Assembly: GCA_037447655.1 (NCBI GenBank) | Contig: JBBHKE010002644.1 | Coordinates: 62,001 to 126,000 of the forward strand | Reading direction: 5' to 3' | DNA: 64,000 nt | Source: Zygnema cylindricum | Lineage: Eukaryota; Streptophyta; Zygnematophyceae; Zygnematales; Zygnemataceae | Shown here: positions 985 through 41,033 of the stretch, one piece after another | Layout: the number at the start of each line of letters is the position of its first letter | Numbering within the stretch: position 1 is the first letter of the stretch | Made by a program: the position numbers and the translations under genes | Notes under the pieces: generated by a model | What the model was told of the DNA's origin: nothing | What the model saw: the letters and a program-made list of their open reading frames with translations, nothing else | The model's database searches: none

Positions 985-1929
985 CTATTGGAGCCTCGGC
1001 TCTGATAGCTTGACACAATCTGCAATAAAGTGTCCCGGCTTTTTGCAATAATGACAAAGACCCTTTGGGGGGCTCTGTCCCCCAGAATGATCTCTTTCCC
1101 CTCTATAAGGTTTCTTCAAGTCCTTCCCCCATCGGTCCCCTCCAGCTGCTAGAGCTTGAATGCTCTTTCCTCCTCTCCTAATCTCCATTGTGTTTTCCTG
1201 CACAAGTATCATCCTGACTACTGTGTTCCATTTCCATGAACTATCACGCATTCCCTGTACTCGGTACACTATGTTTTCGAACTCATCTGGTAATTTCATG
1301 ATAAGGGTGTTAACTTTCATTTTCATTGTACCTGTCCACCCGACACTTTCCATTTCCATATACAAATAAGAAAGATCATTACAGTATTCTAACATCTTTC
1401 CTCCTTTGTAAGTGTAACTCAATAGCTTTTGCTCAGCCAACTGGAGCTCCTGAATAGTTCCAGCTCTATAAATCTCCACTAAACTCTCCCACAACTCCTC
1501 CGCCTTGTAAATGTGAAGATGAGGAGTGGCCAAACCTTGAGTGAGGTGCATCAGAATGAAGTTCTTGGCAGCCATGTTTACATCCTCCCACATTTGAGTA
1601 TCGTTCTCCACGGTCTTCACGGTCGCCGCTCCCGATACTGTGGCAATAGGAGTGAGGGGTGTCTCCTTCCCTTTTTCCTTTTCGGACACACTGCTGTCCC
1701 CATCATCTGCCTCCTCCGCTGAGGCAGCCGTTGTTGCAGAAAACCTTACTCCCCCAAATCCTGGTGGAGTTCCCGAGGGTGGACGTTTCACTTGTCCACT
1801 CACGATACCCCAGTATCGTTTTTCACACAAAGCTCCCATCATCATGGCTTCCCAATAGATGAACCCAGATCCATTGAAGGTGGGCACCCTAGAGGGTGGG
1901 CCCATAACCTGCAATTCTGTGTCCTCCAT
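985..1929 (-). pseudogene. Element A: copia Gag (nucleocapsid) frame
   Basis: 314 codons from an ATG that lies inside the LTR, 20 nt before the LTR end. The start is chosen because the same position and frame hold ATG in elements B, C and the tandem array. The N-terminus has the family signature QVMGPPSRVP, partly encoded by the primer-binding site. A Gag helical region follows (KAEELWESLVEIYRAGTIQE, LIMKLPDEFEN), and then a CCHC zinc knuckle (CHYCKKPGHFIADC) near the C-terminus. It ends at TAG (LQ-stop) where the relative in element D reads Gln, so the stop is probably a decay mutation separating gag from pol. A programmed readthrough stop is possible but not supported by the other copies. 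Confidence 0.85.
1895..1909 (-). other. Primer-binding site of element A (anticodon-arm type)
   Basis: Directly abuts the LTR. In element sense it reads GGTTATGGGCCCACC, the complement of GGTGGGCCCATAACC, which is the anticodon stem-loop of plant initiator tRNA-Met as I know it. It does not start with TGG, so the tRNA 3' end is not the match. Drosophila copia is known to prime from an internal fragment of initiator tRNA, and this looks like the same mechanism. Confidence 0.75.
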
Positions 1930-2951
1930 TGGACTACAGAATACAGGAAGCCTCTAGATAGTGTTTAACTAACCCACTTTCAGCCACGACCACTTCTGCC
2001 CAAGAAGTCAAACTGACAATTTGACTGCACCCCTATGCAGCATGGACTCCCCTGAGTCCGTAGCAAAAAGAATCACTGAAAAACGGCCAACCGGCCGATA
2101 AGTTATAGGGTGGCAAAGATGCCAATTTATACAAACTCTCAGAGAGAGGACTATCTACCTAAATTTTCCTAAGTCCTAGTTTTTCCTAATTCCCTCTCAC
2201 AGCTCCTATCTACTGCCTGTACGAACCAATCACAAAACTGTATAGTACTAGGAAGTACTACTGCCGATGTACTTTCTGTACGGCCTCTGTACGACAAGGC
2301 CATTAAGTGGACGCGTGTCCACTTTCCACTCGTCCGTACGTTCCTCGGAATTCCCGCGACCGAATGATGTCTTCCCACGTGGCGCCAGGTCATACCACGT
2401 CACTAAATGCCAAAATGACCATTCCGAGATTTCGGCGATGATGTGCGCCGTTAGATTTGACGCGAAATTCAATCTCGGCCGTAATAAATACTTGCGCGAT
2501 ATTTGTTTCACTGTCGAAACAAAATGCGCGATATCCATTTCAAACAAGTACAATACTTCGTATATTGTAGAACTGTATCTATGTGTGGCGTTAAGGGTTT
2601 CAGTTAAATGAATCTAGTACATTACAATAGTTTGAATAGTAATGAAACCCTATATCTCCTATCGGACTTCTACGACAGACTGGTTAGAGCTAACGGCTAC
2701 GCCGCGCTCTGCCGGTCGGGGGTTCGAGTCCTGCCGGACTCAACCTTTTGTTGAGAGTGGCTTAAGCCACTCTTTAGTCCTTCCTATGGAGTTGAGGCAG
2801 CAATGGCTCCATTGATCTCTCTCTCTCTCCTTCAGTGACTACAACAAGTATGGGGGCGAGAGAGAGAGAAGAGATAGAGGCAGGCTGCCTACATTTTCTT
2901 TTCTAATAAATTTAGACCTAGAAAATATACTAAAAACTACTTATTTCAACA
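1910..2951 (-). repeat. Element A 5' LTR (1042 bp)
   Basis: Plus-strand ends are TG...CA (TGCAATTCTG to ATTTCAACA). In element sense it starts TGTTGAAAT and ends ATTGCA, followed at once by the primer-binding site. It carries a TATAAATT promoter motif near 2130 (element sense), ACGTG boxes near 2376 and 2396, a CGCG-rich inverted motif near 2490-2535, and the antisense Pol III-like module near 2685-2749. The other LTR is outside the window, so no target-site duplication can be checked. Its outer end interrupts the reverse transcriptase frame at 2952. Confidence 0.9.
2685..2749 (+). promoter_or_regulatory. Antisense Pol III-like module in LTR A
   Basis: Perfect B box GGTTCGAGTCC at 2721-2731, a weak A-box-like TAGAGCTAACGG at 2685-2696, and TTTT at 2746-2749, 15 nt after the B box. 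It resembles the 3' half of a tRNA gene but does not fold into a full cloverleaf. The B box lies 221-231 nt from the LTR start in element sense, and the module runs opposite to retroelement transcription. An 18-bp perfect palindrome (GAGTGGCTTAAGCCACTC, 2755-2772) follows the T run. Confidence 0.6.
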
Positions 2952-5240: not shown

Positions 5241-5359
5241 GAGAGGAAATGGGGTGTTTGGCGCTAAACAGAAGGGGGGGAAGGAATGTAAGGATTACGG
5301 ATGGGGGCCGCACCTATGCTTTCGCCCGTGGGCGTGCGGTTGGCAGCGGCCGCAGGCTA

Positions 5360-5631: not shown

Positions 5632-5639
5632 GATCAACT

Positions 5640-8381: not shown

Positions 8382-8577
8382 AAGTTATTTGCGTTTACAT
8401 CCGAATGCTCTGAAAGTTGTATGGGGAATCTTCGCTAAAAAACAAAGAAACAAGACTAAGTTTCGGTTACATGCGAAAGTACCCTTAGTCTTGTTACTTT
8501 GTTTTTTTAGCGAAGATATTCCGTACTACTTTCAAAGCTTTCCGCTGTAGCGCAAATAAAATCGTTACTATAACTTG
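8382..8577. repeat. Foldback (MITE-like) hairpin, about 196 bp
   Basis: Left arm 8382-8460 and right arm 8484-8577 are inverted copies around a 24-nt loop that holds TTTCGGTTACATGCG. The inner 35 bp pair almost perfectly (TTCGCTAAAAAACAAAG against CTTTGTTTTTTTAGCGAA). Outer arms are more diverged but still match (ACAAGTTAT against ATAACTTGT, CTGAAAGT against ACTTTCAAAG). No coding capacity. Confidence 0.75.
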
Positions 8578-8851: not shown

Positions 8852-9903
8852 TGAAACTCTGAGACCTCCATAAGTCCTCAGAGTAGACAGCTTCCAAGAA
8901 GCCTCTAGGATAATCCTGACCCCTTTGTGTTCCAGCAAAAATAACTGCCACCCTGGCAGACAAAAACCCTGACCACCTCCACCCCTGTAAAGACAAGACT
9001 CCCTTGAGTCGGTTGCAAAAAGAATCTCTGAATTTGCTCCCCTGAGCAGTAAGTTATGGAGGGTCAAAGTTGACCTTTTGTACAGAAGCTCTCTGGGAGA
9101 GGGGGTCCTATCTTCTAATTTTTCTAAGTCCTATCTCTCTCACAGACTCTATCTACTGATGTACGGAACCAATCAGAATTGAGTTCCGTACGCAAAAGTA
9201 CAGCTGCCGGTGTACTTTATGTACGGACATTGTACGACATGTCCAAAATGTCGACACATGTCAAATCCGGATTCGGTGCCATAATCTCCGGAGATTCCAC
9301 AATCCAACTGAATTTCGCCACGCGTCATCTGATGTGGCGATGGCCACAAACCGCCGAAATCTTCCTCCGCGATCTCGGCGCTAATCCTGGCCGTCCGATT
9401 AAATTCGGATTTAATCGTGGCCGTAATAAATACATGCGCGGTATTTGTTTCATTTATGAAACAAAATGCGCGGTACTGATTAATGTCCGTACTGTAAGTC
9501 GTACATTACGTGTTACTGGATCTATGTATCCCGTAATTCATTACAGTTAAATGGTTTATCGAACGTATACATGTTTAAATAAATATCAAACTATATGCTA
9601 CGTAACACTACGGCTAGACTTAACGGCTAAGGCTACCGGCTATTTCCTGACTGCCGGCCGGCAGGTACAAGGATCAAATCCTGCCGCCAGCACACATTTT
9701 AAATAAATAAATAAACCCTAATATAAAAATTCCCGTAAACCTCAGTATAGCCAAGGTAGCCATGGCTCTAGCTTCCTCTCCGATTTCTCAGTGACTGCGA
9801 CAAGTTTGAGAGTTGGAGAGAGAAGTTAGAGATAGACTGCCTCGACTTCTATATTTCTTCTCAGACCTAGAAAATACTAATAAAAAAAACATTAGTTTCT
9901 ACA
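8852..9903 (-). repeat. Element B 3' LTR (1052 bp)
   Basis: Plus-strand ends TGAAACTCTG and TTTCTACA. Nearly identical to 14256-15307 (differences seen around 8971-8985 and 9005). Contains a CGCG-flanked inverted motif (TTTGTTTCA and TGAAACAAA, about 9440-9463), the antisense Pol III-like module and the conserved LTR hairpin (about 9768-9835). Confidence 0.95.
9615..9700 (+). promoter_or_regulatory. Antisense Pol III-like module in element B left LTR
   Basis: B box GGATCAAATCC at 9671-9681, A-box-like TAGACTTAACGG at 9615-9626, and TTTT at 9697-9700. The B box sits 223-233 nt from the LTR start in element sense, essentially the same place as in LTRs A, D and the tandem array. Confidence 0.55.
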
Positions 9904-9916
9904 CTCCCCTTATTTT
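9904..9916 (-). other. Polypurine tract of element B
   Basis: In element sense AAAATAAGGGGAG, immediately before the 3' LTR and immediately after the pol stop codon. The same 13-mer occurs before LTR2 and LTR3 of the tandem array. It would prime plus-strand DNA synthesis. Confidence 0.85.
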
Positions 9917-11479
9917 CTAGTCAATCTTTAATTTCAGACCACACTTCTCCTTGCAAAAAATTAGCTTAGGGGAAGGCACAGGTTTGGTCATCATATCTGC
10001 TACCATTTCACTATCTGGTCTGTACTCTAAACTGATTATTTTGTTTTCTACTTTCTCTCTAACAAAGCTGAGTCTGATGTCCATGTGTTTGGCTTTAAAA
10101 TGGTGTTTAGGATTGGCAGAAATAGCGATTGTTGCCTGATTATCACAAAATATTTTCTGCACACCACTCTTAAGGTGACCAAGCTCACCAAGCAAAGACT
10201 TCACCCACATCAATTCTTTTACAGCAGAGCAAGAGGCCATATACTCAGCCTCCATGGTGGACTGAGCAATAACCTTTTGCTGTTTGCTACTCCAACAGCA
10301 AGCCCCATCACCCACATATAATACATATCCAGAAGTACATCTCCTCATCGGAGCATCACCATAACTGGCATCACTCCAAGTAGTGATGTCAGTATTCTCC
10401 CCACCCAAATGCAACCATAGATATCTAGTTCCTACCAAATATCTAAGGACTCTCTTAGCTGCCTCCCAGTCCTTCTTAGTGGGAGCATTTAGACTTCTAA
10501 TCAGCACTCCTACAGCTGCAGCTAAATCCGGCCGGGTACAATTCATAAAATAGATTAGACTTCCCACTACTTGCCTGTAAGGAATAGTCTGCATGAACTT
10601 CTGTTCATCAGGAGAAAATTCCTCGTCTAAGACTATGACTCCTTCTTCCTCACTCCCCTCACTTCCCTTCTTCAACTCCATTGGAGTTGTACAACTATTA
10701 GCTTTATCCATTTGAAATTTTTCAAGCATGTTCCCTATTGCTTCTTTTTGAGTCAATCTTATAATTTTCCTTTTTCGGTCTCTCTCTACTTGAATTCCCA
10801 AAATATATCTTGCTTCTCCCATATCCTTCATTTCAAATCTCCCCTTAAGATCGGTTTTCAGTTTGTTAATTTTTTCCATTGATTTACTTAATACAAGCAA
10901 ATCATCAACATAAATTGCAATAAATATCAAACCTTCCTCATCTTTGAAAACATAGATTGAGTGATCTGAGGTGATCCGAATATATCCCAGACCGGTAAGA
11001 AACTCATCAAGCTTCTTATTCCATTGTCGAGGTGCCTGTTTCAAACCATAAAGAGATTTAATCAGCCGGCATACCTTACTCTCCTCTCCTTCCTCCACAA
11101 AACCTTCGGGTTGTCGCATGAAGATCTCCTCTTCCAATTCTCCATGCAAAAAGGCTGTCTTGATGTCCATCTGATGCACTTCCATGTCTTCCGCCGCTGC
11201 TAAACTGAGAAGTATGCGGACGGAGGGAAATCTGACCACCGGGGCAAAGGTTTCCTCGTAGTCAATTCCTTCCTTTTGTGTAAATCCCTTTGCCACTAAT
11301 CTGGCCTTGTAGCGTTCGATTGTGTTATCTGGGTTCAGTTTTAATTTGAAAACCCACTTACAACTGATTGGTTTTCGGTTCGGTGGACAGTCCACCAGCT
11401 CCCAAGTATCAGCTGCCATGATTGAAGCCATCTCCTCATTGATGGCTGTCTTCCACCGGTTTCTTTCTGGACAAGTCAT
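9917..11479 (-). CDS. Element B: reverse transcriptase-RNase H (C-terminal part of Pol)
   Basis: 520 codons, open throughout. RT begins NRWKTAINEEMASI and carries the first catalytic Asp105 (HQMDIKTAF) and the YVDD box (Y190-D193). RNase H follows with D370 (WSDASYGD), E410 (STMEAEY), D446 (FCDN) and D495 (ADMMTKP), so all catalytic residues are present. The listed ATG is not the natural start: the polyprotein frame extends upstream to about 11560, where a TGA replaces Arg and an extra G in a G8 run shifts the frame from the integrase part. Downstream the stop abuts the polypurine tract. Length and order are typical of copia Pol C-termini. Translation from this internal Met would be needed for expression, so function is doubtful although the enzyme core looks intact. 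Confidence 0.9.
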   Translation of the reverse strand: MTCPERNRWKTAINEEMASIMAADTWELVDCPPNRKPISCKWVFKLKLNPDNTIERYKARLVAKGFTQKEGIDYEETFAPVVRFPSVRILLSLAAAEDMEVHQMDIKTAFLHGELEEEIFMRQPEGFVEEGEESKVCRLIKSLYGLKQAPRQWNKKLDEFLTGLGYIRITSDHSIYVFKDEEGLIFIAIYVDDLLVLSKSMEKINKLKTDLKGRFEMKDMGEARYILGIQVERDRKRKIIRLTQKEAIGNMLEKFQMDKANSCTTPMELKKGSEGSEEEGVIVLDEEFSPDEQKFMQTIPYRQVVGSLIYFMNCTRPDLAAAVGVLIRSLNAPTKKDWEAAKRVLRYLVGTRYLWLHLGGENTDITTWSDASYGDAPMRRCTSGYVLYVGDGACCWSSKQQKVIAQSTMEAEYMASCSAVKELMWVKSLLGELGHLKSGVQKIFCDNQATIAISANPKHHFKAKHMDIRLSFVREKVENKIISLEYRPDSEMVADMMTKPVPSPKLIFCKEKCGLKLKID

Positions 11480-11561
11480 CGCCTCTCCATAAGTTTGAGG
11501 TTCATCTTGATGAGATAGTTTAGTTACCTTGTTATTAACCTGTTTTTCTTGCAGTCATTTG

Positions 11562-13703
11562 CTACTTCTCCTCCCCCCCCTCAAAATCTGAGGCCAGAAT
11601 AGATGGTTCTCGTGGATTCTTTCGAACAAACTCGGCTTCTCCCCTATCCGTTGATTCCGAATCAATTTCCACCACGTCTTCCGCTTCGAGTAGAGTTGTC
11701 ACTGGAGTTTCCACAGCCGAGTCCTTTTCGGTCTGATTTGTTCCTGCAAGAATGTCATCTTCTCTAAAACCTGGATAGTTAGGAAGCTCAAAGTCATCGG
11801 AATTTTCTGACTCAAATCTGATTTTTACAGACTTCGTATATTTGAAGGGATCCACAGACTTTCCTTCATCCATAACTACTAGATGCTTTACTAAGATTAT
11901 ATCTTCCCTTTTTAGATCATAAACTCTATATCCTTTTACATCTTCATCATATCCTAATAAGTATCCCGGTTTTCCTTTAGGATCTAGCTTCCAATTGGAC
12001 CGATCAGTATCTAGGCTGAACACTTGACTGCCGAAAACCTTTAAGTGAGATATGTCTGGTTTCCGGCCTGTCCATCTTTCATAAGGTGTTTGATCTCTTA
12101 TAGCTGAAGTAAGAACTCTATTCTTGAGGTAATTAGCACAGTTCATTGATTCTGCCCAAAACCTTTTCCCTATCTTTTTATCTGACAACATACTTCTAGC
12201 ACTATCACTTAGTGTTCTATTTAACCTTTCAGCTACCCCATTCTGTTCCGGATTTTCTGGAACTGTCTTTTGGTGTTGAACCCCATCTTCCCTCAGAAAA
12301 TCCTCAAACTGGTTAGAAGTATACTCTCCACCATTGTCACTCCTTACTCTCTTGATTGGAGTTTCATGGAGTTTTTCGCTCCATGCTTTATATTGTCTAA
12401 AACAATTCTCAGCTTCGGACTTGTTTTTCAAAAAATATACCCGGGAATACCGAGACCAATCATCAGTTATAGTCATCATAAATCTCTTCCCCCCCGGTGA
12501 GGGCATTTTAGCCGGTCCCCAAATATCTGTGTGTACTAGATCTAGAATTTTTTCTCCCTTATAGGTGGCTGACTTAGGAAAGGGTAATCTGTGTGCTTTA
12601 CCTTGAGCACATCCACTACAATCACTTATATCATCACTCTCACTGAACTGAATCCCTTCCACCACTCCCATCTTTTTCATCTCTCTTAACTTATCTAGAT
12701 TCACATGCCCAAGCCTCTTATGCCACATCATAATATCATGAACACCAGCATAATAAAGTTTCTTCTTTTCATTACTTAAGATCAGCCTAAACATCCCATG
12801 GCTACCTTTCTCAGCAATGAAATAGACATCATCCTCAAAACTAGCAGTAAAAACTCCTTCCCTAGTGCTAGTAAAAAAACCCTTATCATCTAATACTGAT
12901 GTAGAGATAAGATTTTTGTTCAGCTCCGGAATAAATAATACATCGGAGAATGTTAATATGGATGTCTTTCCTTCTACTAACACTTTTAGATCTACCGATC
13001 CTACAAGAGTAGTGGTGACTATCCTCCCATCCCCGTACTCTATCTCTACGGTGGGAATCTTTCTTATCTTAGTAAACAGGTGTTTATCCTTACACATGTG
13101 CATGGAGGCACCTGAATCTACAATCCAGCCTGCTTCACCTTTCAATCCACCGTAAGCACATTTCTGCCTTCGTGGAATTTTGACCTCATTTTTCGCCTCC
13201 AACTCCTCATCCAAAAGGAGCTCATCGTCCTCGTCCTCGGATTCAGCCTCAAGTACCTGTGTGACAAGGGCCTTTTTCTTTCCTCTCGGGGTACCACCAG
13301 TCTGCCCCTCCTTTAACCGAAGCTCGGTTAGCTTAGTGCACTCTGCCATATAGTGCCCCGGTTTCTTACAAAAGTGACATAGTCCTTTGGGAGCCCTTGG
13401 TTCGAACTCATCGGCTTGTTTTTTCTGCTCCCTACCCCCATAGTTTCCGACCGGTTTTCGGGAATCCCTGTTCCTCCAATCAGTCGCTGTTGCCAAGGCT
13501 TGGCCACTCTTTCCTCCCCTTCGGATCTCAATCGTATTCTCTTGAACGAGAATCATCCCTACCACTGAGTTCCATATCCACCTTGAGTCAGGCAAGTCCT
13601 GCACACGGTAAACTATGTTTACGAACTCATCAGGTAACTTCATCAGTAACCTGTTAACCTTTTCTTTTTCACTGAAATCTTTTCCCGCACTCTGTAGCTC
13701 CAT
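11562..13703 (-). CDS. Element B: Gag C-terminus, protease and integrase part of polyprotein
   Basis: 713 codons. Begins inside Gag (MKLPDEF motif), then a CCHC zinc knuckle (C109, C112, H117, C122), an acidic linker, the aspartic protease (D196 in VDSGAS), the integrase zinc-binding HHCC (H328, H333, C362, C365) and the catalytic triad D393, D456, E492 (D-x35-E). It ends in the Pol linker at a stop produced by the G8 run at 11573-11580, where relatives suggest seven Gs. The start at 13703 is created by an upstream 1-nt deletion and is not the true Gag start. The enzyme motifs are all intact, consistent with a recently active lineage. Confidence 0.9.
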   Translation of the reverse strand: MELQSAGKDFSEKEKVNRLLMKLPDEFVNIVYRVQDLPDSRWIWNSVVGMILVQENTIEIRRGGKSGQALATATDWRNRDSRKPVGNYGGREQKKQADEFEPRAPKGLCHFCKKPGHYMAECTKLTELRLKEGQTGGTPRGKKKALVTQVLEAESEDEDDELLLDEELEAKNEVKIPRRQKCAYGGLKGEAGWIVDSGASMHMCKDKHLFTKIRKIPTVEIEYGDGRIVTTTLVGSVDLKVLVEGKTSILTFSDVLFIPELNKNLISTSVLDDKGFFTSTREGVFTASFEDDVYFIAEKGSHGMFRLILSNEKKKLYYAGVHDIMMWHKRLGHVNLDKLREMKKMGVVEGIQFSESDDISDCSGCAQGKAHRLPFPKSATYKGEKILDLVHTDIWGPAKMPSPGGKRFMMTITDDWSRYSRVYFLKNKSEAENCFRQYKAWSEKLHETPIKRVRSDNGGEYTSNQFEDFLREDGVQHQKTVPENPEQNGVAERLNRTLSDSARSMLSDKKIGKRFWAESMNCANYLKNRVLTSAIRDQTPYERWTGRKPDISHLKVFGSQVFSLDTDRSNWKLDPKGKPGYLLGYDEDVKGYRVYDLKREDIILVKHLVVMDEGKSVDPFKYTKSVKIRFESENSDDFELPNYPGFREDDILAGTNQTEKDSAVETPVTTLLEAEDVVEIDSESTDRGEAEFVRKNPREPSILASDFEGGEEK

Positions 13704-14275: not shown

Positions 14276-15307
14276 AAGTCCTCAGAGTAGACAGCTTCCA
14301 AGAAGCCTCTAGGATAATCCTGACCCCTTTGTGTTCCAGCAAAAATAACTGCCACCCTGGCAGACAAAAACCCTAACCACCTTTACCCCTGTAAAGACAA
14401 GACTCCCCTGAGTCGGTTGCAAAAAGAATCTCTGAATTTGCTCCCCTGAGCAGTAAGTTATGGAGGGTCAAAGTTGACCTTTTGTACAGAAGCTCTCTGG
14501 GAGAGGGGGTCCTATCTTCTAATTTTTCTAAGTCCTATCTCTCTCACAGACTCTATCTACTGATGTACGGAACCAATCAGAATTGAGTTCCGTACGCAAA
14601 AGTACAGCTGCCGGTGTACTTTATGTACGGACATTGTACGACATGTCCAAAATGTCGACACATGTCAAATCCGGATTCGGTGCCATAATCTCCGGAGATT
14701 CCACAATCCAACTGAATTTCGCCACGCGTCATCTGATGTGGCGATGGCCACAAACCGCCGAAATCTTCCTCCGCGATCTCGGCGCTAATCCTGGCCGTCC
14801 GATTAAATTCGGATTTAATCGTGGCCGTAATAAATACATGCGCGGTATTTGTTTCATTTATGAAACAAAATGCGCGGTACTGATTAATGTCCGTACTGTA
14901 AGTCGTACATTACGTGTTACTGGATCTATGTATCCCGTAATTCATTACAGTTAAATGGTTTATCGAACGTATACATGTTTAAATAAATATCAAACTATAT
15001 GCTACGTAACACTACGGCTAGACTTAACGGCTAAGGCTACCGGCTATTTCCTGACTGCCGGCCGGCAGGTACAAGGATCAAATCCTGCCGCCAGCACACA
15101 TTTTAAATAAATAAATAAACCCTAATATAAAAATTCCCGTAAACCTCAGTATAGCCAAGGTAGCCATGGCTCTAGCTTCCTCTCCGATTTCTCAGTGACT
15201 GCGACAAGTTTGAGAGTTGGAGAGAGAAGTTAGAGATAGACTGCCTCGACTTCTATATTTCTTCTCAGACCTAGAAAATACTAATAAAAAAAACATTAGT
15301 TTCTACA
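14256..15307 (-). repeat. Element B 5' LTR (1052 bp)
   Basis: Same length as and almost identical to 8852-9903. In element sense it starts TGTAGAAAC and ends GAGTTTCA. The Gag start codon lies 20 nt before the end. A TACAAAA-type sequence replaces the TATAAAT seen in other family LTRs. Confidence 0.95.
15019..15104 (+). promoter_or_regulatory. Antisense Pol III-like module in element B right LTR
   Basis: Second copy of the module at 9615-9700. B box GGATCAAATCC at 15075-15085, followed by TTTT. Confidence 0.55.
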
Positions 15308-21704: not shown

Positions 21705-22793
21705 TGTAGAAATTGATGGTTCTTTTAGTATTTTCTAGGTCTAAAATATAATGTAGAAAATAAGCCGAGGCAATCTGCCTCTAACTCCTCTCTTCAACTC
21801 CCACACTTGTTTCTTCAACTCCCATACTTGTTGCAGTCACTGAAAAATAGAGAGGAAGTTAAAGCCATGGCTGCCTATGCTATCCGGAGATTTACGGGTA
21901 AAGGATTAGTTGATATACGGGTAGTAGATTAGTTGATTTACTAAAAGAGTATCAGTCAAAGGCAAGATTTGATCCTGGTACCTATCTGCCGTCAAACTCA
22001 CATTAACCGGTAGCTTTAGTCGTTTAGTCTAAGACTAATGTTAGGACATATAGGGTTTGCTAAATATATAAATCTTTCCACGTCGACTAATTCATTTAAC
22101 AGTAACTATTTACTAGATACATAGATTCGGTTATATAAAATACAGATTAGGGTACGGATAAGAAACAAGTACCGCGCATTTGTTTCAATAGCGAAACGAA
22201 TACTACGCATTTATTTATGACGGCTAAGATTGAAATCTACATTTAATCGGACGGCCGGAATGAATGACGAGATCGCGAAAAAGAATTTCGGCGATTTGTG
22301 GTCATCGCCAAATCGGATGACACGTGGCACCATGACATTGGATTTTGGCATCTCCAGGGATTACGGAAAGAAATCCGGATATGACATGTGTCGACTTTTT
22401 GGCCATGTCGTACAATGTCCGTACATAAAGTACACCGACACTTATACCTTTCTGTACGACAGAGTAATATGATTGGTGCCGTATATCAGTAGATAGATTT
22501 TTAGAGAGAGGTAGGACTTAGAAAAATCTGGTAGATACGACCCTCTCTCTTAGAGAGCTTCTGTACAAAAGGTCAACTTTGACCCTGCATAACTTACTGC
22601 TCAGGGGAGCAAATTCAAAGATTCTTTTTGCCGTCGATTAGGGGAATCTTGCTTTCACAGAGGAAAAGGTGGTCAGAGTTTTTGTTTGCCAGGGTGGCAG
22701 GTATTCTTGTTGAAACACAAAGGGGTCAGGGTCATCCTAGTGGCTTCGTGTGAGCTGCCTACTCTGAGGACCTATGGAGGTCTCAGAGTTGCA
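21705..22793 (+). repeat. Solo LTR 1 (1089 bp) with TSD GTTTA
   Basis: Begins TGTAGAAATT and ends GAGTTGCA. GTTTA occurs at 21700-21704 and again at 22794-22798. The sequence parallels the LTRs of element B and the tandem array in plus orientation, including the stem-loop near 21775-21870, CGCG/TTTGTTTC motif, ATG-GAGGTCTCAGAG end and Pol III-like module. With no internal region, it is the product of LTR-LTR recombination. Confidence 0.9.
21943..22031 (-). promoter_or_regulatory. Antisense Pol III-like module in solo LTR 1
   Basis: Minus-strand B box GGATCAAATCT (21965-21975), TTTT downstream (21943-21946) and A-box-like TAGACTAAACGA (22020-22031). Offset from LTR start is about 261-271, slightly larger than in the other copies. 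Confidence 0.5.
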
Positions 22794-23353: not shown

Positions 23354-24396
23354 TGAAACTCTGAGACCTCCATAAGTCCTCAGAGTGGACAACTTCCAAG
23401 AAGCCTCTAGGATAACCCTGACCCTTTTGCGTTTCAACAAAAATAACTGCCACCCTGGCAGAAAATAACCTGACCAACTTCACCCTTGAGAAGGCAAGAC
23501 TCCCTTGAGTCGATAGCAAAAAGAATCTCTGAATTTGCTCCCCTGAGCAGTAAGTTATGGAGGGTCAAAGTTGACCTTTTGTACAGAAGCTCTCTGGGAG
23601 AGAGGGTCCTATCTTTTAATTTTTCTAAGTCCTATCTCTCTCACAGACTCTATCTACTGATGTACGGAGCCAATCTGATTTCAGTTCCGTACACAAAAGT
23701 ACAACTGCCGGTGTACTTTCTGTACGGACACTGTACGACATGGCCTAAATGTCGGCACGTGGTATGTCCGGATTCGCTCCCTTAATCCTCGAAGATGCCG
23801 CGATCCAATGTCATTCCGCCACGTGTCATCTGATGTGGCGATGACCACAAACCGCCGAAATCCTCTTCCACGATCTCGGCGTTAATTCCGGCCGTCCGAT
23901 TAAATTCACATTTAATCGTAGCCGTAATAAATACATGCGCGGTATTCGTTTCACTAAAGAAATAAATGCGCGGTATGGGTTTCTTTTCCGTACTTTTACA
24001 TTTACTAGATATTTGTATCCCGTAAATAGTTACAGTTAAATGAACTATCCTACGTATAAATGTTTAAATAATTATCAAACCCTATAGTACGTAACACTAC
24101 TTCTAAACTTAAAGGCTAAGGCTAACGGCTACCGGCTGTCTGCCGGCCGGAAGGTACCAGGATCAAATCCTGTGGCCGGCACATATCTTTTAGTAAATAA
24201 AACCCCTAACTAAAATATATTTTCCCGTAAACCTCTGGATAGCCTAGGTAGCCATGACTCTAGCTCCCTCTCCAATTTCTTAGTGATTGCGACAAGTTTG
24301 AGAGTTGGAAAGAGAAGTTAGAGGTAGACTGCCTCGGCTTCTTTCTTATTTCTATTCATACCTAGAAAATACTTTAAAAGACCATTAATTTCTACA
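23354..24396 (-). repeat. Solo LTR 2 (1043 bp), no TSD seen
   Basis: Plus-strand ends TGAAACTCTG and TTTCTACA, collinear with element B LTRs but more diverged. Flanks are GATAT and CTTTG, so no target duplication. It may derive from recombination between different elements or a flanking deletion. Confidence 0.85.
24103..24191 (+). promoter_or_regulatory. Antisense Pol III-like module in solo LTR 2
   Basis: B box GGATCAAATCC at 24160-24170 within a T-arm-like stem (CCAGG and CCTGT), TTTT at 24188-24191, and CTAAACTTAAAGG upstream in the A-box position. Offset from LTR start is about 227-237. Confidence 0.55.
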
Positions 24397-25810: not shown

Positions 25811-25874
25811 TGTTGGAATTCAAGTATTTTCTAGGTCTAGAGATTGCAAAATAAAAAGCAAAATAGTAGATATT

Positions 25875-25966: not shown

Positions 25967-26006
25967 TAGAGGGAGACAGACAATTGTTTTATAGGGGGTT
26001 TTCTCT

Positions 26007-26095
26007 AAAAGATAGTTTTGCCAGGTCCAGGATTTGATCCTGGTACCTGCCACTTGTCCACCCGCAATAGCCGGTAGTCTTATCCAGATAGTCTA
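26007..26095 (-). promoter_or_regulatory. Antisense Pol III-like module in LTR1
   Basis: Minus-strand B box GGATCAAATCC (26030-26040) in a perfect 5-bp T-arm-like stem (CCAGG/CCTGG). The best A-box-like motif of the set is TAGACTATCTGG (26084-26095), and TTTT follows at 26007-26010. Offset from LTR start is 220-230. Confidence 0.6.
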
Positions 26096-26983
26096 AATTG
26101 TATTAGATATTATGAGGTATGATATTTATTTAAATAAATACAATAAGAATAATTCATTTAACTAGAACTATATGCATACTGCATAGAAACAGTTGTGGAA
26201 AGTACGACGTACGGTACGATTACGAAATAAATACCGCGCGGTTTGTTTGACGCCGGAAAGAATACCGCGCAGGTATTTATGACGGCCACGATTGAAATCC
26301 AAATTTGATCGGACGGCCGCGAAGGATGCCGAGATCGCGGCGTACGATTTTGGCGGTTTGCGATCACCGCCACATTAAGTGACACGTGGTAACACTACAT
26401 TGGATTGCGGCAACTCCGGAGATTACGGGAACAAATCCGGATATGACACGTGTCGACATTTTTGCCATGTTGTACAATGGCCGTACATAAAGTACACCGG
26501 CACCTGTACTTTTATGTACGATACAGTAATTTGATTGGTGCCGTACTTCAGTAGATAGAGTTTTAGAGAGGGAATAGGACTTAGATAAATTTTGGGTAGG
26601 CAGCTGCCTCTCCCAGAGAGCACCCTGTATAAATGGCAAACTTTGGCCAGCCATAACTATCAATTTACTTGACCATTTTCAGTGATTCTTTTTGCTGCGG
26701 ACTCAAGGGAGTCTAGGCTACACAGGGGTGTATTCGGTCAGAGTTTTTGTCTACCAGGGTGGCTGTATTTCTAAGGGAAAGTCAAAGTGGGTGAATGTGT
26801 CCAAATCTCATATTCTAACTTTGCATTCTGTGGTGGAACTGAGCACACAGAAAGTGTTATTTCACAGGGGTGAATCTATATTGGGGTTCTGACTGTCAAG
26901 GGGTCAGTCACTTGGGTTTATATTAACTTGTAGTCGGCACTATCTAGATTAGCTTCTTTTGGATCTGCATACTCTGAGGGCCA

Positions 26984-28966: not shown

Positions 28967-28971
28967 ACTAG

Positions 28972-28984
28972 AAAATAAGGGGAG
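28972..28984 (+). other. Polypurine tract, tandem unit 1
   Basis: AAAATAAGGGGAG directly before LTR2, identical to that of element B. Confidence 0.85.
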
Positions 28985-30177
28985 TGTTGGAATTCAAGTA
29001 TTTTCTAGGTCTAGAGATTGCAAAATAAAAAGCAAAATAGTAGATATTGACAGCCTGCCTCTAACTCCTCCTCAAGTCCCCACACTTGTCGCAGTCACTG
29101 AAGACTGAAGGAGGAGTTAGCCATGGCTGCCTGTGCTGTCTAGAGGGAGACACACAGTTGTTTTATAGGGGGTTTTCTCTAAAAGATAGTTTTGCCAGGT
29201 CCAGGATTTGATCCTGGTACCTGCCACTTGTCCACCCGCAATAGCCGGTAGTCTTATCCAGATAGTCTAAATTGTATTAGATATTATGAGGTATGATATT
29301 TATTTAAATAAATACAATAAGAATAATTCATTTAACTAGAACTATATGCATACTGCATAGAAACAGTTGTGGAAAGTACGACGTACGGTACGATTACGAA
29401 ATAAATACCGCGCGGTTTGTTTGACGCCGGAAAGAATACCGCGCAGGTATTTATGACGGCCACGATTGAAATCCAAATTTGATCGGACGGCCGCGAAGGA
29501 TGCCGAGATCGCGGCGTACGATTTTGGCGGTTTGCGATCACCGCCACATTAAGTGACACGTGGTAACACTACATTGGATTGCGGCAACTCCGGAGATTAC
29601 GGGAACAAATCCGGATATGACACGTGTCGACATTTTTGCCATGTTGTACAATGGCCGTACATAAAGTACACCGGCACCTGTACTTTTATGTACGATACAG
29701 TAATTTGATTGGTGCCGTACTTCAGTAGATAGAGTTTTAGAGAGGGAATAGGACTTAGATAAATTTTGGGTAGGCAGCTGCCTCTCCCAGAGAGCACCCT
29801 GTATAAATGGCAAACTTTGGCCAGCCATAACTATCAATTTACTTGACCATTTTCAGTGATTCTTTTTGCTGCGGACTCAAGGGAGTCTAGGCTACACAGG
29901 GGTGTATTCGGTCAGAGTTTTTGTCTACCAGGGTGGCTGTATTTCTAAGGGAAAGTCAAAGTGGGTGAATGTGTCCAAATCTCATATTCTAACTTTGCAT
30001 TCTGTGGTGGAACTGAGCACACAGAAAGTGTTATTTCACAGGGGTGAATCTATATTGGGGTTCTGACTGTCAAGGGGTCAGTCACTTGGGTTTATATTAA
30101 CTTGTAGTCGGCACTATCTAGATTAGCTTCTTTTGGATCTGCATACTCTGAGGGCCAATGGAGGTCTCAGAGTTTCA
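28985..30177 (+). repeat. LTR2 of tandem array (1193 bp), recombinant
   Basis: Matches LTR3 at early variants (C in GTCACTGAAG near 29097; 29153 and 29157) and LTR1 at later ones (29189 onward, including CTCAAGGGAG, GTGTATTCGG, GTCTACCAGG, TTTCTAAGGG and CTTGTAGTCGG). The switch lies between 29157 and 29189. Confidence 0.95.
29181..29269 (-). promoter_or_regulatory. Antisense Pol III-like module in LTR2
   Basis: Copy of the LTR1 module. B box GGATCAAATCC at 29204-29214. Confidence 0.6.
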
Positions 30178-32140
30178 GGTTATGGGCCCACCATCTAGGG
30201 TGCCTATGTTTGATGGAACAGGCTTCACGTATTGGGCGTTTACAATGGAGGGATTGCTTTTCGAGAAGCACTTATGGGGAATTGTTGCGGGACAAGTGAG
30301 ATGTCCGCCACCTAGCTTTGGAGGAGCTTACTACGGAGAATCATCTGAGACTGTCCAGAATATCACCCGGAGTTCAGATGCAACGGAAGGTGAAGGGAAA
30401 AACCTTTCCGTGGATGGGGAAATAGGGGAGAAGGAAAAAGGGACACCTATGGTGAGGGGAGCTAGGCTCTCAGCTATGGTACCACATGTAGGGATTAAAA
30501 CTGAAGAAAATGACAGGAAAATATGGGAATACAAAAACACTATAGCAAAACATCTCATACTTAGATATGTGTCTAAGTCGATAGCTATCACTCTTTTAAG
30601 TCTAACCAAGTCTTCAGAGATATGGGAAGCACTAACTCAGATTTATAAGAGTGAGACTATTCAGAGGCAGCAATTAGTAAAACAAGAAATAGATGCCTAC
30701 GTTTATAAAGGCGGTAGCATGATAGAGTTTTGTAATGATATTGCTGCGTTATATGTTGAGCTTACTAGTGCGGGATATGTAGAATCTGAGGAGAGTAAGA
30801 TTAATACACTAATTATGAAACTCCCAGATGAGTACGAAAACATAATTTGTCGTATGCAGGCAATGGATGGCTCCTCATGGACTTGGAGCTTTACCATGGG
30901 GATAATTCTTGTGAGGGAAAGCACTTTGGAGCTTCGTAGGGGAAAAGACAGGGTCAATGCATTTTCAGCTGGTGGTGATTGGCGGAATCGTGATGAGAGG
31001 AACGGCGGTGACGAGCGGAAGCGTGATGAGAAGAACGGTGGTGACGAGCGGAAGCGTGATGAGAGAAAGAAAGACAAAGGTAAACCTTATCGGAACTTTG
31101 GTGGAAAGAGAGGGAGAGGAAAAGGCACGGGAGCTTTGAAAAAATGGGTTTGCTTCTTTTGTAGGGAACCGGGTCATTATATGGAGGAATGCCCTTGTTT
31201 GGAAAAACTTAGAAGTTGGAATGTGGATGAGGAGGACGAAGATGAAGAGGAGAAAGAGGATGAAGAAAAATTGGAGCTTCTTCACATCGGTAGAATGGGG
31301 AAGGGAGAAAAGTACACAGAAATTGCTCGAAGGCAACAGTGTGCTTTTGGAGGTATAAGGGAAGTAAAGAGAGAAGAGGTACTTGAGGATGTCAAGGAGT
31401 GTAGAGTATATGATTTAGAAATGAGAAAGTTAGATCTAGGATCCATAAGTGAAAACGGGAAAGATAAAATTAATGAGGATAATTTTATACACAATAGGGA
31501 AACAGAAAACTGGTCGGAAAAGGAGACTTCAACGGATTCCGAGGAAAGGGGAGAAGTGAAACTCGAAGAGGTTTTAAAGGATAGGGGAGAAGAGAAATAT
31601 TTGATTAAAGGTTTAGGGGAGAAGAAATATTTATTGGGAACTAAATTAGAAAGTAATAGTGGAAAGAATTCCATGGGAGAGAGTGAGGGAAGTTCAGAAA
31701 ATGGGGTAATTATCATGGATAAAAATATGAGTACGAAAGATATAGATCTTATGAGGAACTTAGTGGGGACTAGTGGTTTTTGGGAATATTTGGGGGTGGA
31801 TGGATTTGACATCACTACTTGGTGTGACGAAGATGTGCCTGTAAAAGGGTTAGCATCTAGGTGTATGTTGCAGATTGGAAATGGGGCTTGCTATTTGGAT
31901 CGCAAGAGGGAAATCGGTTTGTGTGTGGATGAAAGAGTGATGAAGTGGATAAAATCTTTGCTTGAATTTAAGAAAAACGGGATGTTAAATAAAATGTGTG
32001 ATATAATTATCATTTCAGTTCATTTAATGCACTGTGTTAAATACTTAAGTTTTATGAAAGGAAAAGGAAAAAGGAAAAAGAAAAGGAAAAAGGGGAGGGG
32101 ATGTTTGTTTACTTGTTTGTGGGAGTTGAAAGAAAAATAG
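30158..32140 (+). CDS. Gag-centred 660-aa protein of the non-autonomous element, copy 2
   Basis: Same protein as copy 1 with only two amino-acid differences seen: Met instead of Ile in the VPxFDG motif near residue 17, and Cys instead of Tyr at 332. This copy therefore has an intact CCHC zinc knuckle (C332, C335, H340, C345) and is the better candidate for a functional nucleocapsid. The start, 33-bp minisatellite, Pol remnants and Lys-rich tail are as in copy 1. It is driven by LTR2 and terminated in LTR3. Confidence 0.85.
   Translation: MEVSEFQVMGPPSRVPMFDGTGFTYWAFTMEGLLFEKHLWGIVAGQVRCPPPSFGGAYYGESSETVQNITRSSDATEGEGKNLSVDGEIGEKEKGTPMVRGARLSAMVPHVGIKTEENDRKIWEYKNTIAKHLILRYVSKSIAITLLSLTKSSEIWEALTQIYKSETIQRQQLVKQEIDAYVYKGGSMIEFCNDIAALYVELTSAGYVESEESKINTLIMKLPDEYENIICRMQAMDGSSWTWSFTMGIILVRESTLELRRGKDRVNAFSAGGDWRNRDERNGGDERKRDEKNGGDERKRDERKKDKGKPYRNFGGKRGRGKGTGALKKWVCFFCREPGHYMEECPCLEKLRSWNVDEEDEDEEEKEDEEKLELLHIGRMGKGEKYTEIARRQQCAFGGIREVKREEVLEDVKECRVYDLEMRKLDLGSISENGKDKINEDNFIHNRETENWSEKETSTDSEERGEVKLEEVLKDRGEEKYLIKGLGEKKYLLGTKLESNSGKNSMGESEGSSENGVIIMDKNMSTKDIDLMRNLVGTSGFWEYLGVDGFDITTWCDEDVPVKGLASRCMLQIGNGACYLDRKREIGLCVDERVMKWIKSLLEFKKNGMLNKMCDIIIISVHLMHCVKYLSFMKGKGKRKKKRKKGRGCLFTCLWELKEK
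30178..30192 (+). other. Primer-binding site, tandem unit 2
   Basis: GGTTATGGGCCCACC directly after LTR2. Confidence 0.8.
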
Positions 32141-32145
32141 ACTAG

Positions 32146-32158
32146 AAAATAAGGGGAG
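32146..32158 (+). other. Polypurine tract, tandem unit 2
   Basis: AAAATAAGGGGAG directly before LTR3. Confidence 0.85.
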
Positions 32159-33351
32159 TGTTGGAATTCAAGTATTTTCTAGGTCTAGAGATTGCAAAAT
32201 AAAAAGCAAAATAGTAGATATTGACAGCCTGCCTCTAACTCCTCCTCAAGTCCCCACACTTGTCGCAGTCACTGAAGACTGAAGGAGGAGTTAGCCATGG
32301 CTGCCTGTGCTGTCTAGAGGGAGACACACAGTTGTTTTATAGGGGGTTTTCTCTAAAAGATATTTTTGCCAGGTCCAGGATTTGATCCTGGTACCTGCCA
32401 CTTGTCCACCCGCAATAGCCGGTAGTCTTATCCAGATAGTCTAAATTGTATTAGATATTATGAGGTATGATATTTATTTAAATAAATACAATAAGAATAA
32501 TTCATTTAACTAGAACTATATGCATACTGCATAGAAACAGTTGTGGAAAGTACGACGTACGGTACGATTACGAAATAAATACCGCGCGGTTTGTTTGACG
32601 CCGGAAAGAATACCGCGCAGGTATTTATGACGGCCACGATTGAAATCCAAATTTGATCGGACGGCCGCGAAGGATGCCGAGATCGCGGCGTACGATTTTG
32701 GCGGTTTGCGATCACCGCCACATTAAGTGACACGTGGTAACACTACATTGGATTGCGGCAACTCCGGAGATTACGGGAACAAATCCGGATATGACACGTG
32801 TCGACATTTTTGCCATGTTGTACAATGGCCGTACATAAAGTACACCGGCACCTGTACTTTTATGTACGATACAGTAATTTGATTGGTGCCGTACTTCAGT
32901 AGATAGAGTTTTAGAGAGGGAATAGGACTTAGATAAATTTTGGGTAGGCAGCTGCCTCTCCCAGAGAGCACCCTGTATAAATGGCAAACTTTGGCCAGCC
33001 ATAACTATCAATTTACTTGACCATTTTCAGTGATTCTTTTTGCTGCGGACTCAGGGGAGTCTAGGCTACACAGGGGTGTAGTCGGTCAGAGTTTTTGTCT
33101 GCCAGGGTGGCTGTATTTATAAGGGAAAGTCAAAGTGGGTGAATGTGTCCAAATCTCATATTCTAACTTTGCATTCTGTGGTGGAACTGAGCACACAGAA
33201 AGTGTTATTTCACAGGGGTGAATCTATATTGGGGTTCTGACTGTCAAGGGGTCAGTCACTTGGGTTTATATTAACTTGGAGTCGGCACTATCTAGATTAG
33301 CTTCTTTTGGATCTGCATACTCTGAGGGCCAATGGAGGTCTCAGAGTTTCA
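32159..33351 (+). repeat. LTR3 of tandem array (1193 bp)
   Basis: Differs from LTR1 at about nine positions noticed. Ends GAGTTTCA, then TSD ATTGG. Confidence 0.95.
32355..32443 (-). promoter_or_regulatory. Antisense Pol III-like module in LTR3
   Basis: Copy of the LTR1 module. B box GGATCAAATCC at 32378-32388. Confidence 0.6.
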
Positions 33352-35474: not shown

Positions 35475-36374
35475 TGAAATTCCGTGGTCTCCATTATCCC
35501 ACAGAATGAGCAGCCTATGCAAAGCCTCTAGGATACTATTTTCCCCTTCCACTTTCTCACTGAATAGGTGCCGCCCAGGTACACAAAAACTTTAACCACC
35601 CTCACCCTGGTATGAACAAGACTCCCTTGAGTCAAACGCAAAAAGAATCACTGAATTTGCTCCCCTAAGCAGTAAGTTATGGCTGGCCAAAGATGGCTTA
35701 TAAATACAAAAGGTCATATAGAGAGAGGAGCCTCAAACACGCTAAGTCCCTTAACTCCTACTCATAACTACCTACTACTCTACCCTAGGCTAATCAAAAG
35801 AGTGTATAGTACAAGAAGGTACAGTGGCCGATTGTACTTCTTGTACGGCCTTTGTACCACATGGCCTTCTAGTTGACACTTATAAACTTGGGAGCCATCG
35901 TTCCTCCTCCCATCCTTTCCGGCGTCCAATGATGTGGCGCCACGTGGCACAACGCGCCGCTATGTCAAAAAGCCGCCAAAGGTTCATTCGGGTTTGGCGG
36001 GGCGACAACGTTTGTCAGATAATGTTTTTTACACAGTTAGATTCGCGTCCGCGAGGGTCGTTTGATTATAGATGACATTTCGTCAATTTTGGTTTGTTTA
36101 AGTGAAAGTGACGTTTTGCGTAACACTTTATTTAATTTCCGAACCATATACGTGTATCGTTTCGCTAACGCCTAAATGGTTCAAGCGTAAGTCTACATTG
36201 TACTCTGCAGACCAAGGTTCAAATCCTGTTTAGGGCAACATTTTGGTAATCTATCAATGTGTCTGCCTGTCTCATTGTTTCTTTCTGACTATGGCGGCAG
36301 CCATGGTGACTCTCTCTCTCTCTTCACTCCAGAGTCTAAATTAAGAAGTGAATAATAATTACTTCATTTCAACG
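35475..36374 (-). repeat. Element C 3' LTR (900 bp)
   Basis: Plus strand begins TGAAATTCCG and ends ATTTCAACG (final CA mutated to CG). The begin encodes METTEFQ in element sense, the family's Gag start at the usual 20-nt distance from the LTR end. It is shorter and more diverged than the others, so probably the oldest of the set. Confidence 0.8.
36164..36244 (+). promoter_or_regulatory. Antisense Pol III-like module in LTR C
   Basis: B box GGTTCAAATCC at 36216-36226 and TTTT at 36241-36244. The whole 36170-36234 segment is the most tRNA-like of the set: GCCTAAATGGTTCAAGCG resembles an acceptor plus D arm, and a TTTAGGGC stretch could pair with the start. Offset from LTR start is about 149-159. 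Confidence 0.5.
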
Positions 36375-39300: not shown

Positions 39301-40034
39301 CCTCATTATCAAAGCTAGCTGCGAAGATTCCTTTCTTAGTTCCGGTTTCGAACTCTTTTTCATCTAGAACAGCTGTAGAGACTAGATTCTTGCTAAGTTG
39401 TGGAATGTAAAGAACATCTGAGAGTGTTACAATTGAAGCCTTTCCATCAACTAGAACTTTTAATTCAAACGATCCAACAAGGTTTGTGGTTTTTACTCTA
39501 CCATCTCCATACTCTATCTCAATTGTTGGAATTTTTCTTAATTTAGTAAACCACCTCTTATCGTTGCACATATGCATTGAGGCCCCTGAGTCTATCATCC
39601 ACCCATCCTCAGGTGGATCCTTCTTACTTATGAAGGCACACTTTTGTCTCCGTAGAATGTCTGCATGCTTCTTAGTGGTTTTAGGTTTAACAAGAAGCTC
39701 CTCAAGCTCCTCTTCTGGTTCGGTTACGTCATCTTCTTCCTCGTCATGAACTTGAGTCAAAAAAACCTTTTTCTTTCCTCCATCATTTGAGGAACCTTGT
39801 CCATATTTCACTCGAAGATCCGCAAGTTTGACACAATCTTCCATATAATGTCCCGATTTCTTGCAGAAGTGACATAATCCACCTCGATGAGCTCCTCTCC
39901 CTTGTCGATCAAATCTACCACCTCCTTGTCTTTTTCCTCCAAAGTTTCGATAGTGAACCTTTCCTTTTTCCTCATCACGCTTCTGCCAATCAGATCCTGC
40001 ACCCAATGCTTGAACACTCGGATTTCCTCTCCTA
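36375..40034 (-). pseudogene. Element C: decayed copia gag-pol
   Basis: In element sense from 40034: Gag C-terminus with CCHC (CHFCKKSGHYMEDC), acidic linker, protease DSGASMHMC (about 39560-39590), integrase (HKRLGH, CSGC, TDVWG, RSDNGKEY), then RT with YIDDLLVL (about 37380), and RNase H pieces (WSDASYKD, STMEAEYMA, DNQSAISIA) up to a degenerate polypurine tract at 36375-36387. It is broken by frameshifts and stops near 38731, 38640, 38055, 37860, 37490, 37140, 36886 and 36640. Gag N-terminus and the 5' LTR are missing because element D begins at 40035 and nothing matching them reappears later in the window. Confidence 0.85.
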
Positions 40035-41033
40035 TGTTGAAATCACCGATTAAGGGAAGGTATTTTCTAAGTCTTAATTAGGTAAAATAACTAAAAGAAA
40101 AAGCACGGACAACCTGCCTCCACCTTCTCTCTCTAGCCCCCATACTTGATGTAGTCACTGAAGGAGAGAGAGGGCGGTGGAACCATGGCTGCCTCAGCTC
40201 TATAGGCAGGACTAAAGAGTGACCTAAGTCACTTTCAACAAAAAGGTTGAGTCCGGCAGGACTCGAACCTCCGACCGAGAGAGCGAGGCGTAGCCGTCAA
40301 CTCTTATTTGTCTGTCGTAGTAGTCCGTTAGGATACATAGTGTTTGATAGTTATTTAAACATTAGCAAGATCATTAATTCGTTCAGCGGAATAATAAATT
40401 AAGGACATAGAAACTAGTTGAGTTTTAGTGCGTACGAAACAAATGTACCGGACATTTGTTATTTTGGACGGCGAACATTAAAAGTCGGTTTGGATCCAAC
40501 AATCCGCATCATCGCCGGGATCCCGGAATAGGCGCCTTAGTGGTTTTTTAGGACGTGACATGACATGTCGACACGTGGCAAGATATTATTGGGAAGCGAG
40601 AATCCCAGGGAGCGCGAGGAAAAGTCTAGAGGAGACAGACGTCCATTTCATGGCGTTATATTAGAGGGCGTACACAAAGTACATCGGCCCTAGTACCTTT
40701 CTGTGCTGTAGAGTCTTCTGATTGGTTCGTACATCACTAGATAGGGGTTGTGAGAAGGGTTTAGGACTTAGAGGGATGAGGAGGTATCCGCAACTCTCCC
40801 AACAAGCTTGTATAAATATTGGCATCTTCGCCACTTGATAATTAATTGCCTGGTTGGGTATTTTCAGTGATTCTTTTTCTTGTGGACTCAAGGGAGTCCA
40901 AACTGAACAAGGGTGCAATTAGATTACCTATTTGTCTGCTTGGGTGGCAATGAACCAAGTTGAAAGAGGGCTAGCCAAAAGCTATCTAGCGGCTTTTTGA
41001 ATTCAGTGATCCAATGGGGGACACATAATTGCA
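40035..41033 (+). repeat. Element D 5' LTR (999 bp)
   Basis: TGTTGAAATC to ATAATTGCA, followed by the primer-binding site. TATAAATA at 40811-40818. Hairpin stem CCACC..CTCTCTCT (40119-40134) against GAGAGAGAG..GGTGG (40164-40180) around CATACTTGATGTAGTCACTG. It lies in opposite orientation inside element C Gag. Confidence 0.9.
40240..40305 (-). promoter_or_regulatory. Antisense Pol III-like module in LTR D
   Basis: Minus-strand perfect B box GGTTCGAGTCC (40259-40269), T5 at 40240-40244, and A-box-like AAGAGTTGACGG (40294-40305). Offset from LTR start is 225-235. A shortened version of the LTR A palindrome follows (AGTGACCTAAGTCACT). Confidence 0.55.

Follow-up and report, generated by a model that had tools for sequence, protein, structure and literature searches.

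Promoters for RNA polymerase III (Pol III) within long terminal repeats (LTRs) are known from short non-coding retrotransposons (Cassandra and, as has been proposed, Helenus), which these promoters are believed to drive. Cassandra reportedly carries a 5S-type Pol III promoter in the LTRs of a terminal-repeat retrotransposon in miniature (TRIM), the Ty1 and Ty3 elements are said to be targeted to Pol III genes, and an antisense mammalian-wide interspersed repeat (MIR) in Polr3e is reported to form an antisense Pol III unit that interferes with RNA polymerase II (Pol II). Here we describe a 64,000-nt stretch of the Zygnema cylindricum assembly GCA_037447655.1 (contig JBBHKE010002644.1, positions 62,001 to 126,000; hereafter the window), in which ten LTRs of a coding copia family harbor a tRNA-like module within their U3 region, on the strand opposite to the element's genes. 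Judged from its sequence, this module is a good candidate for a built-in Pol III landing site.

Like Cassandra, these LTRs contain a Pol III promoter or promoter-like module, but that of Cassandra is 5S-derived, of type 1 and borne by a TRIM, whereas the present one is type 2-like, antisense and located in coding elements. The tRNA-derived short interspersed nuclear elements (SINEs) and the MIR in Polr3e resemble it as antisense type-2 Pol III units and offer a precedent for interference with Pol II, although the MIR is a separate SINE within a host intron while our module is part of the LTR. Ty1 and Ty3 are likewise LTR elements linked to the Pol III machinery, but there the boxes belong to the target and here to the element. 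According to PMC10886601 (Kojima 2024), the LTRs of Helenus (TRIMp3) likewise contain a tRNA-like sequence that bears A and B boxes and is not a functional tRNA, and in fungal Helenus the primer-binding site (PBS) is often directed to the anticodon loop, that of the initiator methionine tRNA (iMet) included, as in the elements described here. Helenus elements are, in the same text, TRIMs of 311-1263 bp whose tRNA-like part is thought to drive the element itself; in contrast, our module is antisense, lies in ~1-kb LTRs of gag/pol-bearing copia elements, and is found at a distance of ~220 nt from the start of the LTR, ahead of the presumed Pol II promoter. The word "antisense" is absent from the main text of PMC10886601, which states that not few LTRs in Repbase have tRNA-like parts, so that a tRNA-like sequence in an LTR is, on the strength of that text, already known as a raw observation. 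Among the open-access papers searched, as represented by titles and the openings of abstracts, none deals with a Pol III module lying antisense in LTR elements that code for proteins. What sets the present case apart is that the module lies antisense in coding copia elements and has been retained in thousands of copies.

Occurrence, strand and genomic spread of the module

The original prediction had placed a near-consensus B box, antisense to element transcription, in ten LTRs of the window; all ten LTRs proved to be real, and each has the box exactly where it had been put (10/10). Compared with GGTTCRANTCC, the box is exact in LTRs A, C and D, shows one mismatch in element B, solo2 and the tandem LTRs, and two in solo1. 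The T-run expected after the B box is present in all ten LTRs, albeit at 14-19 nt and not at 15-40 nt. The weak A-box-like sequence expected before it, TAGACTnnnnGG, is found exactly in element B and the tandem LTRs and with one change each in solo1 and solo2, while LTRs A, D and C have another form; it is degenerate, and its start lies 48-56 nt upstream of the B box in the window copies. Consistent with the claim that E-type and other LTRs of the window lack the module, a profile of the module finds these ten copies and, at E <= 0.1, otherwise only a tRNA-Arg gene.

The B box alone proves nothing, since 8.24 sites at <=1 mismatch to GGTTCRANTCC are expected in 64 kb by a first-order model (maximum 15 in 100 simulations) and the window has 10, nine of which are LTR modules. 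A B box with TTTT within 24 nt is observed 9 times against 1.2 expected (maximum 4), these copies being related by descent.

A set of LTRs was drawn from the assembly by means of the PBS, regardless of the module. It yielded 70 upstream stretches from 69 usable loci of 70 (L055_1 repeats L054), which were split into 56 related LTRs and 14 unrelated LTRs with the same PBS. The profile was trained on 57 modules, 50 from the sampled LTRs and 7 from the window; these had been placed partly via hand-chosen anchors, and 57 of 62 group rows were kept. It matches 53 of the 56 related LTRs, and in the three unmatched ones (L067, L090 and L098) the family similarity begins only in mid-LTR, that part of U3 being missing. 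Among 40 further LTR pieces outside the training set, 39 match at E 4.7e-4 or better. The 14 unrelated LTRs belong to families devoid of a module of their own (L038, L042, L044, L048, L053, L063, L077-L080, L083 and L092-L094); two of them have a profile match, which corresponds to an inverted related LTR in L094 and to a tRNA-like sequence in L044.

The module is always antisense to its own LTR, in the window (10/10) as well as in the sampled copies. When only the best match at <=1 mismatch to GGTTCRANTCC is considered, it is antisense in 30/56 related and 0/14 unrelated LTRs, and sense in 2/56 and 2/14, respectively. Sense-strand modules in L046, L094, L122, L123, L074 and L117 were rejected, as all of them lie within inverted LTR DNA. 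TTTT starts 13-19 nt past the B box in 89/95 modules, against a background of 9.4%.

Counts over the whole 352.8-Mb assembly (2,689 contigs), with reversed patterns as controls, revealed that (i) GGTTCGAGTCC occurs 2,170 times versus 55 for its reversed control, and 23 of 23 sampled sites were judged by eye to lie in A/D-type module surroundings, (ii) the three-part pattern TAGACTNNNNGG-N28..50-GGATCAANTCC-N8..24-TTTT has 3,352 matches versus 3, alternative readings of a site being counted separately, and (iii) the PBS pattern CAGGTTATGGGCCCAC has 6,089 matches versus 9. The genome is that of a photosynthetic organism (88 matches to the chlorophyll a/b-binding family). Overall, the module is spread over thousands of copies, in U3 and antisense to the element genes, and the central claim, that the U3 of a copia family has conserved a Pol III-like unit on the antisense strand, is borne out by the 53/56 related LTRs, the genome counts of the three-part pattern and the matches of the profile to tRNA genes. 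The further suggestions, that the unit is transcribed or occupied by TFIIIC and could silence, insulate or target the element, drew no support from these sequence analyses.

Five sampled LTRs (L032, L045, L089, L095 and L101) are closest to A overall yet have a B/T-type module of the GGATCAAATCT kind, which suggests recombination or an exchange of the U3 module between lineages.

Conservation, folding and resemblance to tRNA genes

Parsimony changes were split into those on internal and those on terminal branches of the LTR tree, for 35 LTRs (15 B, 13 T, 3 X and 4 A-like) taken from the 56 related sampled LTRs and those of the window. This set leaves out the A/D and C lineages, truncated or moduleless LTRs (L046, L067, L090, L098 and L034), near copies (L055_1, L059 and L089), and L043, L073, L084 and L088. 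Thirteen of the 18 fixed positions of the A and B boxes show no internal change (mean 0.72), compared with 232/637 U3 columns outside the module (mean 1.54; Fisher p 0.0026, Mann-Whitney p 0.005). The possibility that the B box is no better conserved than the neighbouring U3, which would have counted against the original prediction, does not hold, as its ten fixed positions average 0.40 internal changes against 1.54 (Mann-Whitney p = 0.005). Within the B box, four internal changes fall at position 8, which is free in the consensus, and none at positions 2-7, 9 and 10. Among the A-box columns, TAGACT and then GG are quiet, and positions 14-17 and 20 are variable; three T's of the T-run have 0-1 internal changes. 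Some lineages have a U3 that aligns poorly elsewhere, yet retain the module. Low change is not confined to it: 112/733 windows of eleven columns are no richer in internal changes than the whole B box, and other U3 motifs, for example near the LTR start, are conserved equally or more.

Over 142 sequences (356,334 bases), the profile gave 156 matches in LTR-like DNA and 4 outside, namely in L044 (E 0.0028), in L045 (E 0.019), in the tRNA-Arg gene of the window (E 0.052), and one at E 6.7; the reversed-sequence control gave one match (E 0.21). ARAGORN calls exactly three tRNA genes in these 356,334 bases, and they are the same three sequences, a comparison which, the sampled loci being LTR-rich, is not a genome-wide tRNA test. 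The tRNA-Gln-like sequences of L044 (36-107) and L045 (2838-2909) have common flanks of ~60 nt upstream and ~35 nt downstream and are therefore copies of one dispersed tRNA-like repeat, so that the independent tRNA-like targets of the profile number two. Both copies lie ~1.35-1.4 kb upstream of a PBS.

At default settings, ARAGORN called no module as a tRNA. Full tRNA identity was rejected, as the Rfam tRNA model fails on the modules, and for this reason we regard the module as tRNA-like in its promoter half and T-arm, and not as a tRNA. Module A gives a weak Rfam match of the mascRNA type (14 bits, E 3.1), and the 5S family has no match at E <= 10 in the window. The C lineage has the clearest D-arm, in which columns 22-27 pair with columns 33-38 in 10 to 12 of 12 sequences per pair. 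The module probably arose through the capture of a tRNA-derived sequence. A SINE existing as an independent dispersed unit was not found, 156/160 profile matches being in LTR-like DNA, with loci that were fetched around LTRs and free copies elsewhere not searched.

In the B, T and X lineages the B box is flanked by an outer helix (GACGGAC/GTCCGTC in T, GCCGGCC/GGCCGGC-like in B). Pairing was scored in 68 of 96 modules, leaving out 20 C-type and 7 A/D-type modules and L116, although the C-type L119 slipped in; removal of duplicates, L055_1, L119 and gapped rows left 64 of the 68 for covariation. In the 68 modules, 74.8% of the outer helix cells are paired versus 62.5% after shuffling (maximum 68.5%), while the T-arm shows no excess (75.0% versus 74.8%). 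In the 64 sequences, the covariation score of the helix is 0.235 versus 0.146 in shuffled data (sd 0.010; 0/500 as high), slid versions reaching <=0.120, and 74.2% of its cells are paired versus at most 48.3%. No excess was seen in the same 64 sequences for pairs changed on both sides (10 versus 9.4; 249/500 shuffles as high) or for further pair types (32; 47/500 shuffles as high). Covariation support for the B-box hairpin is thus moderate. Mean fold z values of the antisense strand are -2.4 (B), -2.0 (T), -1.1 (A/D), -0.9 (X) and -0.6 (C), fold energies are about equal on the sense and antisense strands, and the G-T/A-C counts favour no strand (outer helix 29/30, T-arm 23/16). A second hairpin, GAGTGRCTTAAGYCACTCTTT, is found just beyond the T-run in A/D-type modules (2750-2775 in the window, and D/A-type loci).

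A putative Pol III platform and its alternatives

We give a probability of about 0.58 to the reading that the LTRs have retained, antisense in U3, a tRNA-derived type-2 Pol III/TFIIIC module. The module would be a degenerate derivative of a tRNA gene, ~80-100 bp long and antisense within the U3 of this copia clade, composed of a putative A box, which takes the form TAGACTnnnnGG in the B/T lineages and a D-arm-like form, GCCTTAATGGTTAAGGC, in C, of a B box in a stem-loop (GG[T/A]TC[A/G]AnTCC), and of a presumed T-run terminator 13-19 nt further on. Host TFIIIC would bind it and recruit Pol III, which would make a short antisense transcript that stops at the T-run; we argue from the conservation of the T-run that transcription occurs and must stop. 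In the mechanism that we deem most likely, selection acts on the bound TFIIIC/Pol III complex, because RNA-level structure varies between lineages whereas the boxes and the T-run do not, and the antisense RNA itself may be a by-product. Such a complex could hold U3, which precedes the element's Pol II promoter, in an open state and screen it from the surrounding chromatin, and in the 3' LTR it would face incoming Pol II.

Several observations weigh against this reading. The A box alone averages 1.12 internal changes, which is not significant (p 0.15), and when the same mask is slid along U3, 29/678 placements are as low in change. The exact TAGACTNNNNGG A box is present in only 28/95 modules, that of the B/T lineages deviates from the consensus at Y11, A14 and R15, and LTR D has lost its GG; the third position of the B box is A in the B/T lineages. 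Furthermore, the Rfam tRNA model RF00005 has no match in the window modules or in 20 sampled loci, and the modules showed no tRNA-type acceptor stem.

These figures for the A box and the sliding mask would also suit an unlikely alternative, in which a tRNA gene or tRNA-derived SINE was captured by an ancestral LTR and has been passively inherited, its boxes persisting through the youth of the copies or by chance. A tRNA-derived capture is the likely origin anyway, and the boxes have decayed in some copies. Passive inheritance does not, however, account well for the lower number of changes at fixed box positions on internal branches (p 0.0026), for the concentration of change at B-box position 8, for a T-run kept at 13-19 nt in 89/95 modules, or for the survival of the module where U3 is otherwise poorly alignable. 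That the hairpin is what is kept, as DNA or as RNA of either strand (e.g., at the 3' end of the sense RNA), with the likeness to Pol III boxes being secondary, we hold to be rather improbable. The covariation score (0/500 shuffles), the excess pairing of the outer helix, the about equal fold stability of both strands and G-T/A-C counts that pick neither agree with it, but the two tree-robust measures (both-side changes and further pair types) do not stand out, the T-arm shows no excess, the A/D and C lineages form the hairpin differently (mean z only -0.6 in C), and the A box, the T-run and the tRNA-gene matches are left unexplained.

Read in sense, U3 looks like the complement of a tRNA T-arm, and hence a sense RNA site complementary to 3' fragments of host tRNAs, serving either as a priming site or as a target of small RNAs derived from tRNAs, might be imagined. 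This is very improbable, as the element already has a PBS adjoining its LTR, the end of the site has no TGG-type acceptor complement, and the conservation of the T-run and A box would be unexplained. Equally slim is the chance of a fortuitous B-box match passed down within one family: with 8.24 such boxes expected per 64 kb the B box alone is not rare, but the three-part pattern (3,352 versus 3), the strand bias (30/56 versus 2/56) and the tRNA-gene matches led us to reject chance as a sufficient explanation.

A bolder version of the retained-module reading, which we put forward tentatively and hold to be less likely than not, is that a coding copia clade may have domesticated a tRNA gene, which would serve in U3 as a permanent platform for Pol III/TFIIIC on the antisense strand, selected across many sub-lineages and thousands of copies, such that the genome would have more of these sites in LTRs than in tRNA genes; the platform might insulate or time the element's own Pol II promoter and yield a structured antisense RNA. 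If the retained-module reading is true, the antisense tRNA-derived module would represent another use of Pol III promoters in LTRs, in which the element draws the Pol III machinery to its own control region. With several thousand such sites, the genome would then offer a large natural set for studying the effects of extra TFIIIC sites on chromatin, and the modules would be a source of false tRNA or small-RNA annotations.

Host elements and other features of the window

Element orientation was judged from the gag/pol open reading frames (ORFs), from the PBS immediately downstream of the LTR and from the polypurine tract that precedes the 3' LTR. The elements have the attributes of copia LTR retrotransposons, namely TG..CA LTRs, 5-bp target-site duplications (CAGGC for element B, ATTGG for the tandem), a PBS, a polypurine tract, and gag and integrase domains (Pfam). 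As the family codes for integrase and copia-type gag domains, element B is not a short non-coding TRIM; its two LTRs show 4 differences in 1052 positions. No relatives were found in viral contigs. The coordinates are compiled in the table.

Table. Positions of the LTRs, antisense modules and associated features in the window
Feature	Position	Strand	Details
LTR A	1910-2951		element on -
Element B	8852-15307	-	3' LTR 8852-9903, 5' LTR 14256-15307
Solo1 LTR		+	
Solo2 LTR		-	
Tandem LTRs 1/2/3	25811-27003, 28985-30177, 32159-33351	+	
C 3' LTR	end near 36374		element on -
LTR D	40035-41033		element on +
PBS GGTTATGGGCCCA, element B	14243-14257	-	directly after LTR
PBS GGTTATGGGCCCA, other copies	1897-1911 (-), 27002-27016 (+), 30176-30190 (+), 41032-41046 (+)		directly after LTR
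Module of LTR A	2667..2764	+	profile E 3e-15; B box 2721-2731, TTTT 2746-2749
Module of B 3' LTR	9613..9713	+	profile E 8.8e-25; B box 9671-9681, TTTT from 9697
Module of B 5' LTR	15017..15117	+	profile E 8.8e-25; B box 15075-15085, TTTT from 15101
Module of solo1 LTR	21928..22039	-	profile E 4.4e-22; B box 21965-21975
Module of solo2 LTR	24096..24206	+	profile E 6e-29; B box 24160-24170
Module of tandem LTR 1	25993..26098	-	profile E 1.5e-19; B box 26030-26040
Module of tandem LTR 2	29167..29272	-	profile E 1.5e-19; B box 29204-29214
Module of tandem LTR 3	32341..32446	-	profile E 1.4e-19; B box 32378-32388
Module of C 3' LTR	36161..36257	+	profile E 4.5e-15; B box 36216-36226; best D-arm-like A box of the window
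Module of LTR D	40226..40321	-	profile E 6.7e-11; B box 40259-40269, TTTTT downstream
tRNA-Arg(TCG) gene	60207..60277	-	sole non-LTR profile match of the window; E 0.0094 (window search)

The PBS GGTTATGGGCCCA, which we take to be complementary to the anticodon arm of iMet, is of the anticodon-arm or half-tRNA type and is translated within gag (..QVMGP..), so that primer site and coding sequence overlap. The gag ATG lies within the LTR, ~20-25 nt before its end (14236-14290 and 1897-1930 on the - strand, 26984-27016 and 41032-41046 on the + strand).

The region 25811-33351 is a tandem array of the order LTR-internal-LTR-internal-LTR, with one 5-bp repeat, ATTGG, around the entire array. Its two internal parts (1981 nt each) have 2 differing sites and an ORF of 660 aa with a copia gag domain only.

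A near-perfect inverted repeat of ~170 bp at 8385-8559 gives weak matches to microRNA precursors and resembles a small foldback element; two Rfam matches of the window (8388-8556) were attributed to this unrelated repeat and not to the modules.

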